Positions 1-5,246 of a stretch of DNA of 5,246 bases are shown here, piece by piece. Position 1 is the stretch's first letter; every line of letters starts with the position of its first letter. Source of the stretch: a bacterium (lineage in GTDB: Bacteria > ARS69); assembly GCA_025774805.1 (NCBI GenBank), contig JALGZR010000171.1, positions 1 to 5,246 on the forward strand. The letters run 5' to 3'. Position numbers and translations under genes: made by a program. A model generated the notes under the pieces. It was not told the origin of the DNA, made no database searches, and saw only the letters and a program-made list of their open reading frames with translations.

Positions 1-767
1 AGTTCCACCGCGAGGGTGACCGTTTCACGGCGGAGGCGCGGGGGGGAGCGGCCCGGGTCGAAGCCGTCGTCTTCCCGGACGGCGCCGTCTTCGCGAGAAA
101 GCGGGAGGCGGCCGAGGGCGAGGACGGGGAGCGGGCTCTCGCGTCCATCGCGCGCGCCCTCAAGGAGGATTGCGCCCGATCGGGCGCGCGGGTCCTCTCC
201 TGGGAGCGGGAGGCCGACGCCGACTGGAACCGCCAACTGATCGCCGCCGGCTTCGAGATCCACCGCAGGAAGATCTTCGTCCGGCGCGACCTCACGACTC
301 TCGGGCAGGTGGAGTCCCCCTTCGCCTGGAAGACCCTCGCCGAGATCGGGGACGAGGAGTTCCTGGGCTGGCTCACCCGTGCCTCGGAGGGGGACCCGTT
401 CGAGGAGGGTGAGCCCCGCGACTACGAGCGCGAGTACAAGGAGCTACTCGAGCACGCCGGGGAGAAGCTGGACCGGCACCTCTGGCGCGTCGCGCTGCTG
501 GAGGGCGAGCCGGTCGGGGTGGTCCTGCCCCTGTCGTTCGGGGGGGATCCGCCGGAGGGGACCCTCTCCTACGTGGCCGTCCTTCCCTCCTGCCGCAAGC
601 GCGGCATCGGGCAGCGTCTGCATCGAGCCGGGCTCGCCCTCCTGGCCGAGGCCGGCATCCGGCGTTACGTCGGCTCGACGGACCTCCGGAACGAGCCGAT
701 GGCGCGGGTCTTTTCGAAGAACGGCTGCGAGACCGTCCGGGAGCAGCTCTTCTTCCGCGTTCCCTGA
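1..767 (+). CDS. Tandem-GNAT N-acetyltransferase, 5'-truncated by window edge
   Basis: The reading frame is open from base 3 to a TGA at 765-767, giving 254 visible residues; the true start lies upstream. The C-terminal half (about residues 103-254) is a complete GNAT fold. It has a beta strand with LSYVAVLPSCRKRGIG (about 188-203), whose R198-K-R-G201-I-G203 is the Q/RxxGxG/A acetyl-CoA pyrophosphate-binding loop, and a late VGSTDLRNEPMARVFSKNGC segment (223-242) typical of GNAT motif B. The N-terminal part ends in LIAAGFEIHRRKIFVRRDL, which is how GNAT domains usually end, so I infer a two-domain protein with the first domain cut by the window. A GTG at 309 is in frame but is not a credible start, because matching coding sequence continues upstream. 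GNAT enzymes move acetyl from acetyl-CoA to an amine. The substrate cannot be inferred here. The protein is probably cytosolic: no signal peptide or membrane segment is visible in this part. Confidence 0.85.
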   Translation, partial: FHREGDRFTAEARGGAARVEAVVFPDGAVFARKREAAEGEDGERALASIARALKEDCARSGARVLSWEREADADWNRQLIAAGFEIHRRKIFVRRDLTTLGQVESPFAWKTLAEIGDEEFLGWLTRASEGDPFEEGEPRDYEREYKELLEHAGEKLDRHLWRVALLEGEPVGVVLPLSFGGDPPEGTLSYVAVLPSCRKRGIGQRLHRAGLALLAEAGIRRYVGSTDLRNEPMARVFSKNGCETVREQLFFRVP

Positions 768-882: not shown

Positions 883-1770
883 ATGGGCGGCGAGAACGAC
901 CGGGGAGCGGTTCTGATCACGGGCGCCTCCACGGGGATCGGCCGCTCGACCGCGCGCCGGCTGGACGGCCTGGGGTTCCGGGTCTTCGCCGGAGTCAGAC
1001 GGGACGAGGACGCCCGGACGCTCCGCGACGAGGCCACCGACCGACTCACACCCGTGCACCTGGACGTCACCGACGAGCGGGCGATCGCCGACGCCGCCCG
1101 TGCCGTGGAAGAGCAGACGAGCGGCGCCCTCTTCGGCCTGGTCAACAACGCCGGCCTGGGGTTGGGGGGCCCGCTGGAGATGCTGCCGGTGGCCGACATC
1201 CGCCGGCTCATGGAGGTCAACCTGACCGGTGTCCTGGCCGTCACCGGGGCGTTCCTCCCGATGCTCCGGCGGGCCCGCGGTCGCATCGTCAACATCGGGT
1301 CCGTCGCCGGCGTGATCGCCTTCCCGGGCGCGAGCGCCTACTCCGCGTCGAAGTTCGGCCTCCAGGCCGTCACGGACTCCCTGCGGGTGGAGCTGAGGCC
1401 GTTCGGCGTTCACGCCACCATCATCCTGCCGGGCCGGGTGGAGAGCGCCCTCTGGGAGAAGGGGCGGGTCCAGCGAGAGGCGCTCCTCGAGCAGGCTCCG
1501 GCCGAGCTGAGGGGACTCTACGCGCCGCTGCTCGCACTCGGGCGTCGCATGCAGGAGCGGCCCCGCGGGGTGACCTCGGCCGAGACGGTGGCCGGAACGG
1601 TCGCGCGCGCTCTGACCGACCGGCGCCCGCGCCCGCGGTACCTGGTCGGCGCCCATGCCCGCCGAGCGGCCCGGCTGGGACGGCTCCCCCGCGGCCTGAG
1701 GGAGTGGCTCATGGGCAAGGCGATCGCGCTCGCCGCTCGACGCTGCGCCCGCGGCGAGATGGGGGAGTAG
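883..1770 (+). CDS. Classical short-chain dehydrogenase/reductase (SDR), NAD(P)-dependent
   Basis: The 295-residue protein is a complete classical SDR. The cofactor loop TGASTGIG is at 13-20, HLDVTD (59-64) supplies the adenine-contacting Asp, and NNAG is at 88-91. The catalytic tetrad is intact: N113, S140, Y153 and K157 (YSASK at 153-157). PG at 183-184 follows the sixth strand. Basic R39-R40 after the second strand (FAGVRR) favour NADP(H) over NADH; this is inference. The overall pattern (GFRVFAGVRR, GPLEMLPVADIRRLMEVN, and a PRYLVG-containing tail) resembles the 17-beta-hydroxysteroid/retinol-dehydrogenase-like SDR subgroup, so an alcohol or ketone substrate is likely but unidentified. 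The last 45 residues are rich in Arg and Ala and may form an amphipathic helix. The gene starts 115 bases after the acetyltransferase stop and may have its own promoter. Confidence 0.93.
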   Translation: MGGENDRGAVLITGASTGIGRSTARRLDGLGFRVFAGVRRDEDARTLRDEATDRLTPVHLDVTDERAIADAARAVEEQTSGALFGLVNNAGLGLGGPLEMLPVADIRRLMEVNLTGVLAVTGAFLPMLRRARGRIVNIGSVAGVIAFPGASAYSASKFGLQAVTDSLRVELRPFGVHATIILPGRVESALWEKGRVQREALLEQAPAELRGLYAPLLALGRRMQERPRGVTSAETVAGTVARALTDRRPRPRYLVGAHARRAARLGRLPRGLREWLMGKAIALAARRCARGEMGE

Positions 1771-1861: not shown

Positions 1862-4126
1862 CTAGAAGTCGTCGCGCACGGCCAGAACGGGGGCGTAGTA
1901 GGTGAGCACGGGACGGGGGACGACGACGAAGTTCGGGGGCGGGTTGTGGAGCAGGCTGATGTCGAACTTCATGTTCCCGCGCTTGAAACCCGCCGTGACC
2001 TGGCTGGATCCATCCTCCATGGTCACGTAGGTCTCCATGATGCGATTGTTCGAGATGAGTCCGCCCGTCCTCCGCAGGGAGTTCTTGACGAACGGCATCG
2101 TCTTGTAGTCGCTGTGGCGGTCGTAGGCGCGTTCCTTCTCGCGTTGCTCGGCCGTGAGGTAGGTCTCGCGGTTGCTTTCGCTGTCGGGGTGGAGTTCTCC
2201 CGTGCTGTCCGCCCAGAAGGCGTCGATCCCGACCCGGCCCTGGGCGGCGAGGAACGTTCCGGTCAGCTCCGTACTCGAGGGCAGCTCGTGGGTGAAGACG
2301 ATGTCGTCGCGCGCGATGACCCCCAGGACGTTCCGGGCGTCGTAGTCGGGATTGCGCTCGTAGACCTCCCGGTAGTCGGTCCCGTTGAGCATCGCCGTAT
2401 CGCCGTCGTCATCCACATACTGGATGTTGCCCGTGACGCGGATCTTCTCGTTGCCGACGACCGTGAGCCGTCCCTGGAGCTCTCCCTCCATGGACGTGAT
2501 CCGGCCGTCGATGTAGATCATCCCGCCGTCGGTCCCGGAGAGCTGGACGTAGGTCGTGTCCACGAGCGTCGGGGGATTCCAGACCTCCTCGTCCCAGGTG
2601 GTCGTAACCGGCTCGTAGTCGTTGACCTGGATCTCCTTCTCCACCTCCTGCCACTCGTAGATGTCCTCCATCCGCGTCTGCGTGACGGTTACGTAGACCG
2701 GGATCTGCCGGGTCTTCAGGACATCCTGGTCCTCGAACACCGGCACCGTGACCGTGTAGTCCTCCGTGACGGTCTCGAAGACCGGCTCGGTGACGGTGTA
2801 CTCGATGATCTCCTCGCCGACCTGGACCTGCTCATCGGAGTCGTAGGGCTCCTGGACCCACTCGTACTCGCCCAGCTCGCCGGCTCCGCCGCCGCCCACG
2901 GAGGTGCCGCCGTCGGCGCCGGAGTTGTAGGGCACCCAGACCTGGACCGACCGGTATCGCGTGACGGTCTGCCACTCGTAGATCGGCTCCGTCCGGGTAT
3001 GGACGACCTCCTCGGTGCCCACCTGGACCTCGACATCGCGGGTGCGGTCCTCGATGTTCTCGCCGATCTGCACCTGCTCCGTCGTCCAGTAGTCCTCGTC
3101 GATCCAGTGGTCGATGACCTCTTCCTCGTAGGTCACCTCCTGCTCGCCGACCTTGACCAGCTCCTCGGTCTCGTCCGTCCTCGACTGCGTCACCATCTCG
3201 AAGTAGGGCGGAGTGAACTCCTGGATGCGCGCCTGCCCGTCGGCCGTGAAGAGGATCTCGGCATCGAGGCCGTCCTGCCCGACAAAGAAGTCCGCCTTCG
3301 ACTTCAGGTCCTCGAAGTCGACGGCAGCGAGATCGATTCGCCTCGCCTCCGGGTTCGCGTTCATGAGACTCGTGTTGTCGGGCGTCGCACCCGCCTGGAA
3401 GCCGAAGCCCTCCACGGAGGAGACGTCGTCCTGGTAGAGCCCGTCCGGGAAGTAGAAGTCGATGCTCTCGTTGGCGTGGATGAGCCCCCGGGGTGCCCCC
3501 GAGATGCCCAGCGTGCCGCGGTTCTGGAAGAAGACGAAGGAGCTGAAGGGCTCGTTCTCCCGCACCAGGGCGGAGACGAGGCGGACGACGTCCCCATTCC
3601 GTCCGGCCGCCTCGAGGACGAAGTAGCTGTCGGAGAGGCCCGTCGGGTCGACCGGCGCGATCGTCGTGTCCCGCAGGCGCTGGATCCGCTGGACGTAGTC
3701 CCGGGCGGCATAGACGCGGACGTTCGTCCCGACGAGGAAGCCGTAGGGCGGGTCGACGGTGGAGTCGAGCCACGCGACGCTGCCGTAGGCGGTCTCCTCC
3801 GCCTCGGTGGTGTAGAGGGGCTCGGTCTGCGTCGCACCCGCGACGGTCCCTCCGTTGTCGCCGGCAACCGCCGCTCGCAGCTCCAGGTTGCGGTTTTGGC
3901 CGTCGTACGCGCTGTTCGTGACCACGTTCATGGCCAGGTGGATCTGCGCGAAGGCGGCATTGAGGGCGCGAGACTCGCCTTCGAGGACCCCCTGCGCGTT
4001 CGTTTCTGCCACGACTCGCGAGGAACTCACGAAGGAGAGGGCGGCGATGGCGACGGCGATGTAGAGGACAACGACAAGAACTGCGCTGCCCCGTTCGGCG
4101 CCTGTTTTCCGGCCTGTCGGTTCCAT
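1862..4126 (-). CDS. PilX/DUF4900-like pilus-associated or surface protein with beta-repeat insert
   Basis: The 754-residue protein has a short basic N-terminus ending ERG and then one hydrophobic helix (about 14-34), the layout of PilX-type pilin-like proteins. Gly13 could be a prepilin-peptidase site, but the usual Glu5 is absent. Residues about 35-320 form an exported domain with GLIHANESIDFYFPDGLYQ (214-232), resembling the 'vhTNg...F' segment of DUF4900-type proteins. Residues 323-515 are Val/Thr/Glu/Tyr-rich repeats. Residues 536-754 resume the family pattern: IYIDGRI, GRLTVVGNEKIRVTGNIQY (552-570), LGVIARDDIV (601-610), a GGLIS step (688-692) and LLHNPPPNF near the end. I infer an envelope protein linked to type IV pili or a similar secretion machine; no pil genes are visible nearby. 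It has no cysteine. The ATG at 4126 is the only plausible start; its Shine-Dalgarno is weak (GGAAG only two bases away). A 129-base gap separates it from the upstream peptidase gene. Confidence 0.85.
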   Translation of the reverse strand: MEPTGRKTGAERGSAVLVVVLYIAVAIAALSFVSSSRVVAETNAQGVLEGESRALNAAFAQIHLAMNVVTNSAYDGQNRNLELRAAVAGDNGGTVAGATQTEPLYTTEAEETAYGSVAWLDSTVDPPYGFLVGTNVRVYAARDYVQRIQRLRDTTIAPVDPTGLSDSYFVLEAAGRNGDVVRLVSALVRENEPFSSFVFFQNRGTLGISGAPRGLIHANESIDFYFPDGLYQDDVSSVEGFGFQAGATPDNTSLMNANPEARRIDLAAVDFEDLKSKADFFVGQDGLDAEILFTADGQARIQEFTPPYFEMVTQSRTDETEELVKVGEQEVTYEEEVIDHWIDEDYWTTEQVQIGENIEDRTRDVEVQVGTEEVVHTRTEPIYEWQTVTRYRSVQVWVPYNSGADGGTSVGGGGAGELGEYEWVQEPYDSDEQVQVGEEIIEYTVTEPVFETVTEDYTVTVPVFEDQDVLKTRQIPVYVTVTQTRMEDIYEWQEVEKEIQVNDYEPVTTTWDEEVWNPPTLVDTTYVQLSGTDGGMIYIDGRITSMEGELQGRLTVVGNEKIRVTGNIQYVDDDGDTAMLNGTDYREVYERNPDYDARNVLGVIARDDIVFTHELPSSTELTGTFLAAQGRVGIDAFWADSTGELHPDSESNRETYLTAEQREKERAYDRHSDYKTMPFVKNSLRRTGGLISNNRIMETYVTMEDGSSQVTAGFKRGNMKFDISLLHNPPPNFVVVPRPVLTYYAPVLAVRDDF
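2582..3160 (-). repeat. Repeat-encoding segment of the PilX-like gene (residues 323-515)
   Basis: This segment encodes diverged beta-like repeats in two halves split by a Gly-rich linker (about 402-420). VxVGE-type units start at residues 324, 352, 367 and 434. YEW recurs at 383, 421 and 490. VQVGTEEVVHTRTEPIYEW (367-385) aligns without gaps to VQVGEEIIEYTVTEPVFET (434-452), with 10 of 19 identical. A 14-residue unit, YTVTEPVFETVTED (443) then YTVTVPVFEDQDVL (457), is also a 42-bp DNA repeat, with TCGAA-led copies at 2733 and 2775. Alternating V/T residues with Glu and aromatics suggest stacked beta-hairpins; this is inferred from the pattern only. Confidence 0.75.
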
Positions 4127-4255: not shown

Positions 4256-5246
4256 TCACTTCAGCCTCGCGACGTGGAGCCGGACGTCGGCGTCGACCTG
4301 CCGGACGGACTTGCCCATCATGGCCTCGAAGGCCTTCACCTTGTCGGTCCCCGCCACGACCGCCGCGACGTAGGCCGTCATCCGCGCGCGGGAGATGCGG
4401 CCGACCATGTAGTGGGCGATCGCCCATGACTGGGCGTAGTGGATGTCGGATGTCCGCCGGTCGGTGTGGCCGGCGACCTGGAACTGCAGGGGCGTGGCGA
4501 CGAGAAGGTCCTCGATCCGGAGCAGCGTCCCCTCGCCCTGGGCCTTCTTGAAGATCGTCACGAACGCGGGGAACGGGGCACTGTGGACCAGTTCGTCCCC
4601 CTCCACGACGCTCATCTCGTAGTAGGACGCGAGGCCCTCGTCGAGCCAGAGGGGAACGAAGACAGTCCTCCCCGCGGGCCAGAGGAAGTTCCGCGAGAAC
4701 GCGTGGAAGCCCTCGTGGAAGAGCTTCTCGAACATCACCCGATTCGCGGCATGCCGCGTTCGGCGATTCTTCGCGATGGCATCGCGGTTCTTGGCCTTCC
4801 CGTCGTGTATTTGCTTCAGGAGCCCGTCGAGTGGGTCCAGTTGCTCCTTCTCCCACTTGTTCACGCGGTTGAGATTCTCCCTCCTCCAGTTCTCGACGAT
4901 CCGAAGCCGCTTCTTCTTGTCTCCGCCGAGATCGCCCAGGATCTTGGCCCTCCACCGGTCCGCTTCCCTGTTGATCTTACCGCGCTCCTTGGCCGCCTCC
5001 TTGCGGATCCTGGACTTCTCCTTCTTGATCTGCTTCTCGGCTTCCTTGGCCTTCCGCTCGATCGTGAATACGTCGTCCCGGATCTGGTCCGCCTTCTGCC
5101 CCTGGACCATGTCGTAGGCCACGATGTAGTTCCTCACGATGTTGTAGAAGGCGGGGTTCCGGATGGCCGTCCCGAGCTTCTCCTTCTGGAACGCGAGGTA
5201 CTCGTCGAGATTCGAGAGGAGGAAGACGCGAATCTTGCGGCCCGTG
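4256..5246 (-). CDS. Gluzincin-type zinc metallopeptidase-like protein (DUF1570-like), N-terminus outside window
   Basis: The frame is open from the right edge to a TGA at 4256-4258, giving 329 visible residues. A GTG at 5137 is not the real start, because sensible sequence (VFLLSNLDEYLAF, NPAFYNIVRNYIVAYD) precedes it. The zinc motif HEGFH (bases 4703-4717) is followed 22 residues after its last His by WLDEGLASYYE, whose Glu is the expected third ligand. YAQSWAIAHYMV then fits the Y-x-x-S/W-A-hydrophobic helix of this superfamily. This HExxH...WLxEGLA layout is that of DUF1570-like and related gluzincin families, so I infer a zinc peptidase or a descendant. Between the N-terminal strands and HEGFH sits a Lys/Arg/Glu-rich, probably coiled-coil stretch (4760-5062). 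Any signal peptide would lie outside the window. The substrate is unknown. Confidence 0.82.
   Translation of the reverse strand, partial: TGRKIRVFLLSNLDEYLAFQKEKLGTAIRNPAFYNIVRNYIVAYDMVQGQKADQIRDDVFTIERKAKEAEKQIKKEKSRIRKEAAKERGKINREADRWRAKILGDLGGDKKKRLRIVENWRRENLNRVNKWEKEQLDPLDGLLKQIHDGKAKNRDAIAKNRRTRHAANRVMFEKLFHEGFHAFSRNFLWPAGRTVFVPLWLDEGLASYYEMSVVEGDELVHSAPFPAFVTIFKKAQGEGTLLRIEDLLVATPLQFQVAGHTDRRTSDIHYAQSWAIAHYMVGRISRARMTAYVAAVVAGTDKVKAFEAMMGKSVRQVDADVRLHVARLK

Follow-up and report, generated by a model that had tools for sequence, protein, structure and literature searches.

The stretch of DNA analyzed here, hereafter the window, comprises the whole of contig C72 (5,246 bases), which belongs to a metagenome-assembled genome (G000) with an estimated contamination of about 5%. 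A GNAT acetyltransferase and a short-chain dehydrogenase are encoded on the plus strand. On the minus strand, a 754-residue pilin-like protein, the reading frame of which runs across positions 1862-4126 without an internal stop, lies beside an incomplete DUF1570/peptidase MA-like protein (Table 1). The same genome contains other prepilins and two secretins elsewhere, and the pilin-like protein is not repeated in it. Neither the pilin-like gene nor its DUF1570-like neighbor was found in four other genomes of the same GTDB phylum; the nearest relatives found for both are in the Planctomycetota genomes G060 and G061, and the tetranucleotide composition of the contig is about as close to that of G060 as to that of its own genome. 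The contig may be binned contamination, which bears on the host and not on the protein.

Table 1. Features of the window and of a tandem gene pair in genome G060; residue numbers refer to the pilin-like protein of the window.
Feature	Coordinates	Strand	Basis or remark
GNAT acetyltransferase	3-767	+	Pfam scan
Short-chain dehydrogenase	883-1770	+	TGASTGIG and YSASK motifs, by visual inspection
Whole pilin-like protein, 754 aa + stop	1862..4126	-	ORF; full-length relatives L002 and L003 at 51% identity
Prepilin-like N-terminus, Gly13 then hydrophobic helix, no Glu at +5	4025..4090	-	GspK model NF037980 positions 1-88 match relatives' N-termini
Conserved N-terminal core, residues 35-308 (HANESIDFYFPDG...GLDAE)	3203..4024	-	Profile A2; 30/392 Planctomycetota genomes
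Hairpin arm 1 (ascending strand), residues 309-399	2930..3202	-	AlphaFold2 strand; length co-varies with arm 2
Gly-rich hairpin tip, residues 400-418 (NSGADGGTSVGGGGAGELG)	2873..2929	-	GGGTxVGGGG-type motif conserved in almost every relative with an insert
Hairpin arm 2 (descending strand), residues 419-506	2609..2872	-	AlphaFold2 strand
Pfam YTV (PF07639) match, residues 441-467, in arm 2	2726..2806	-	26 bits, E 9.4e-6, cut-off 21
Conserved C-terminal core, residues 535-754 (MIYIDGRI...NPPPNF)	1865..2524	-	Profile A2 positions 323-545
Incomplete DUF1570/peptidase MA-like protein	4256-5245	-	HEGFH zinc-protease-type motif; long charged N-terminal region
Tandem family genes with full hairpins	L102:3419-5701 and L102:5817-9041		ORF starts uncertain

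The N-terminus of the window protein (AERG/SAVLVVVLYIAVAIAAL) consists of a charged lead, a Gly, and a hydrophobic helix. Gly13 is invariant in 31 relatives, and the residue at +5 is Val in the window protein and other than Glu in every family member read. A charged lead, Gly, and hydrophobic helix lacking Glu at +5 are likewise features of GspK and PilX. The NCBIfam GspK model (NF037980) matches the first 60–90 residues of 10 of the 31 family members with a best E of 1.5e-9; the window protein itself gives no match to this model at E ≤ 1. Unlike in GspK proper, the match is confined to these N-terminal residues of relatives and falls far below the equivalog cut-off (37.8 bits over positions 1–79 in the best relative, against 130 bits), and we file the family as resembling GspK rather than as a GspK ortholog. 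The first-pass annotation had described the host protein as PilX/DUF4900-like. An N-terminus of the GspK/PilX kind is retained from that description, with PilX_N (PF14341) itself reaching E = 0.0057 in a single relative, and the DUF4900 part is not, as this model matched none of the 31 members at E ≤ 1. The family core also differs from GspK and PilX in being larger and in matching no Pfam domain, a search with the window flanks included.

In some relatives, the setting of the gene recalls that of GspK and PilX, with prepilin genes as neighbors. Prepilin-like genes (GFSLIE, GFTLLE, GFTLVE, etc.) directly adjoin seven family members (L103, L105, L108, L109, L110, L111, and L114), with starts such as GFSLIEVIITF and GFTLLEMMVST beside L103 and GFTLVEVIVTM and GYTLVETAIAM beside L109. 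These seven include forms both with and without the insert described below. The window gene and that of L002 stand alone, without a prepilin neighbor.

Residues 323–515 (window 2582-3160) form an acidic, aromatic, Cys-free block rich in Val, Thr, Glu, Tyr, and Trp. The block is real as annotated at first pass, and its natural limits are wider: the module spans about residues 309 to 530, homology breaking at about residues 309/310 and 531. The two arms defined below contain 16% Val, 14% Thr, 17% Glu, and 0% Cys. The repeat in the window protein is degenerate (arm 1 gives the best self-match, of 15% at spacing 15) and no tandem DNA repeat was found in the window, but the periodicity is clear in relatives, at 34% for spacing 14 in L002 and 30% for spacing 15 in L059. 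Because the two nearest relatives, L002 and L003, carry the block at the same place, and because it contains a Pfam YTV match above the cut-off, the block is more than a chance feature. A match to trimethyllysine dioxygenase (E 0.063) and matches of relatives to glutathione peroxidase fall wholly or partly inside the compositionally biased region and were treated as chance.

L002 and L003, from Planctomycetota metagenome-assembled genomes, are 51% identical to the window protein and both carry the block, so near relatives alone could not settle whether it is an insertion. A profile (A2) was built from the two flanks only, with the block cut out, and retrieved relatives in 30 of 392 genomes of the Planctomycetota, the phylum of L002. 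The match runs across the join without a large gap in L019, L022, L024, L045, L046, L072, L074, and L075, in which the C-terminal core is continuous with the N-terminal core, whereas other relatives have 56 to 281 extra residues at the same point; two genomes (G103 and G074) encode both forms as paralogs. The block is therefore an insertion at a single site of a conserved core. The proposal that it splits a pilin-like protein as a separate element is thus borne out, and close homologs do not all carry it as an unbroken segment. At the insertion site, the insert-free relatives have a short stretch such as VVIKARKIATGLVETVHDGDLPPGGVIY, which looks like an ordinary small hairpin. In the distant relatives L068–L071, a different segment of ∼130–150 residues (LYLPLPSSLTSNPDDPDDTLKAYSLG...) lies near the same site and lacks the hairpin signature. 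Genome G060 encodes five copies of the family, two of which have full hairpins and are arranged in tandem.

Every long insert contains, close to its middle, a Gly-rich GGGTxVGGGG motif or near-variant, after which comes G[EY][YW] or a comparable sequence; the shortest insert, that of L047, has a different turn at its tip. The arms on either side of this tip are matched in length, with values such as 16/29, 51/57, 52/57, 93/101, 107/116, 110/116, 121/131, 137/134, and 138/132 residues, and a Pearson correlation of 0.989 across 18 proteins (a nineteenth, L038, was left out as its tip could not be parsed). To allow for shared ancestry among the proteins, which makes them non-independent, the correlation was recomputed on 17 contrasts from a tree built from the flanks, affording r = 0.966 with a sign-flip p of 0.00035. 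In the close pair L041/L042, the arms differ by 14 and 15 residues. Measured by the same anchors, the window arms are asymmetric (99 vs 115), and the AlphaFold2 model places the difference in the linker after residue 506. Seven proteins have a lone Cys on each side of the tip, 15–16 residues ahead of it and 12 residues beyond it; the remaining proteins have neither, with the exception of L063, the two cysteines of which are not opposite each other.

AlphaFold2, run with three input sequences (the window protein, L002, and L003), draws unbroken strands at residues 309–399 and 419–506 of the window protein (91 and 88 residues) with a pLDDT of about 50–71. For the segment of L002 alone, it draws strands at 23–123 and 145–245, each of 101 residues, with a pLDDT mostly of 80–89 and a tip of low confidence. 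The flanks of the window protein are unreliable in the model (pLDDT 20–45), and pTM is low, at 0.24 and 0.26. The alternating Thr/Val composition favors long strands, and AlphaFold2 may draw them by habit; the covariation of arm lengths is support independent of these models. From the models and the matched arms, the block appears to form a single giant β-hairpin with mirror symmetry, not a string of repeat domains, and a hairpin with arms of ∼90 residues around a Gly-rich tip is strongly supported, if computationally. At 3.3 Å per residue, its computed length is ∼30 nm. The first-pass annotation would have been contradicted by a predicted structure lacking a separate module, and AlphaFold2 predicts a separate one. 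The same data bear on the alternative that the block is a low-complexity spacer with little or no ordered structure, with the long strands an artifact of AlphaFold2. The biased composition, the shallow alignment, and the low pLDDT of the full-length run are consistent with such a spacer, but it gives no reason for matched arms (r = 0.97 after tree correction), a conserved and near-central tip, or paired cysteines, and a disordered linker would not normally contain so many aromatic and Val residues; we consider it distinctly unlikely.

A search of PDB sequences with the family profile returned nothing meaningful, and Foldseek searches with both models returned only weak long-hairpin look-alikes and no real structural match, such that no counterpart to a single hairpin of about 90–100 residues per arm was found among solved structures. 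The weak matches are all to long-hairpin proteins (lysenin, aerolysin, and phage tail proteins), which would suit an assembly of several hairpins into a long β-barrel or tube like those of pore-forming proteins or phage tail tubes. The TM-scores of these matches are nonetheless ≤0.15 with an rmsd mostly >20 Å, the arms lack the steady two-residue alternation of hydrophobicity that a membrane barrel would need, and the N-terminal helix is single-pass, all of which make a barrel very improbable. Unless it coils or pairs, an isolated two-stranded ribbon of such length would be expected to be floppy or sticky. The evidence for an amphipathic ribbon from sequence periodicity was mixed and was not used.

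Known pilins offer a model for how such a module might be deployed. GspK, which caps the pseudopilus, has an additional domain built into its pilin sheet, and ComZ of Thermus thermophilus has a β-solenoid module inserted into its β-sheet (PMC7248040, PMC8179133). The window protein shares with GspK a large extra module in the body of the protein, which in GspK is an α-domain (PMC7248040, PMC8179133) and here a β-hairpin, and it shares with ComZ and with PilB of Streptococcus sanguinis a functional module borne on a pilin. ComZ, in contrast, carries a DNA-binding β-solenoid and PilB a vWA domain, and these proteins are compared with the window hairpin by description. The precedents of capping with an inserted domain in GspK and of the inserted solenoid in ComZ lead us to read the window protein, by analogy, as a tip-type minor pilin with a hairpin module.

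The explanation we favor, and hold to be reasonably probable, is thus a GspK/PilX-type minor pilin onto which a giant two-stranded antiparallel β-hairpin has been grafted. Both arms of the hairpin would have lengthened together in evolution, by roughly 14–15 residues per step. Like GspK, the protein might cap a type IV-like filament or pseudopilus, a tip location that we infer from the analogy, and the hairpin would then project from the filament tip, or else from the cell envelope. It could hold the conserved Gly-rich tip a fixed distance away, and a putative role as a fiber-like spacer or adhesive spike is plausible; in some relatives, one disulfide near the tip probably locks the two arms. 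The hairpin nature of the module is well supported by computation, and its function is inferred. The stalk of the ultralong CDR H3 of bovine antibodies is far shorter and is unrelated to the pilin-like block. It resembles the block in being a two-stranded β-ribbon that holds a tip away from the body of the protein (PMC8602281, PMC11229553). Modular minor pilins are already known, and the hairpin module resembles no known domain; it may represent a novel type of surface spike that can be extended. Because hairpin length within this one gene family grades from almost nothing up to about 140 residues per arm, natural sequences can reveal the rules by which the ribbon lengthens.

The YTV match in arm 2 is the only one in the window genome, where it scores 29.8 bits in a whole-genome scan, and none was found in 14 control genomes. 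The resemblance, initially called superficial, was understated, as it passes Pfam's own cut-off (26 bits vs 21). Some YTV match is present in 6 of the 31 family members; across the 392 Planctomycetota genomes, YTV matches occur in 41, and 39 of these are outside the 30 that have the pilin-like family. The literature describes YTV proteins as cysteine-rich, located in the cell wall, and confined to Planctomycetales or Planctomycetia (PMC8567305, PMC10632474), with one member essential in Planctopirus limnophila (PMC10632474). They may contribute to the structure of the planctomycete wall. The classical definition (Cys-rich 16-residue YTVxKPVxET units in the cell wall of Planctomycetia) does not describe the block, which has units of about 14–15 residues in relatives and no cysteine in the window, and the host genome of which is not in a Planctomycetia-type set. 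Classical YTV proteins are, moreover, nearly all repeat, unlike the window hairpin with its location inside a pilin-like protein.

These observations raise the alternative that the same giant hairpin belongs to a protein that stays anchored in the membrane instead of serving as a filament-tip subunit, with ribbons pairing side by side into a wall-like sheet. In its favor are the above-threshold YTV match in the window and some match in 6 of 31 members, the nature of YTV proteins as cysteine-rich cell-wall proteins (PMC8567305), the occurrence of several copies per genome (five in G060), and the presence of some copies alone, without prepilin neighbors. A wall sheet does not sit well with the prepilin-like N-terminus and the prepilin neighbors of several relatives, or with a window hairpin devoid of cysteine, and we regard it as unlikely.

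The classical YTV proteins examined (L116–L140) are built of two near-equal halves, the first of YTVCKPVYETKTKEIC-type units and the second of YTVCHMVPEQRTKTCT-type units, both of 16 residues, around a center rich in PG and Trp. Half lengths include 258/258, 241/241, 211/210, 354/350, and 194/197, with unequal halves in L133 (389/327) and L140 (259/188), and correlate with r = 0.92 in raw values, without tree correction, over ten non-redundant proteins. Because the two halves match in length, giant hairpins may also be the form of the classical YTV proteins; both groups have a distinctive center flanked by halves of nearly the same length. The layout also bears on whether the block is a conventional repeat domain, either a β-solenoid or tandem small β domains, with the equality of its halves coincidental. 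The 14–16-residue periodicity in relatives would suit such a domain, but each half of a classical YTV protein has its own repeat type and is matched in length to the other, and AlphaFold2 predicts no solenoid, leaving this explanation barely credible.

The residue alphabet shared by the window block and the YTV proteins is small and would fit either homology or convergence. We suggest tentatively, at somewhat less than even confidence, that the pilin-like block and the YTV proteins form one structural class of giant antiparallel hairpins that grow by matched units on both arms, with arms that reach about 140 residues in the pilin-like family and span about 190–350 in the YTV halves. The mirror-image layout suggests a fold for a cell-wall family reportedly nearly restricted to planctomycetes; a single class, if true, would provide both a fold for the uncharacterized YTV family and an adjustable spike for pilus-like filaments. 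The 824-residue YTV protein L133 is alone in having a period of 30 residues, and this period is common to its two halves, as expected of a paired ribbon.
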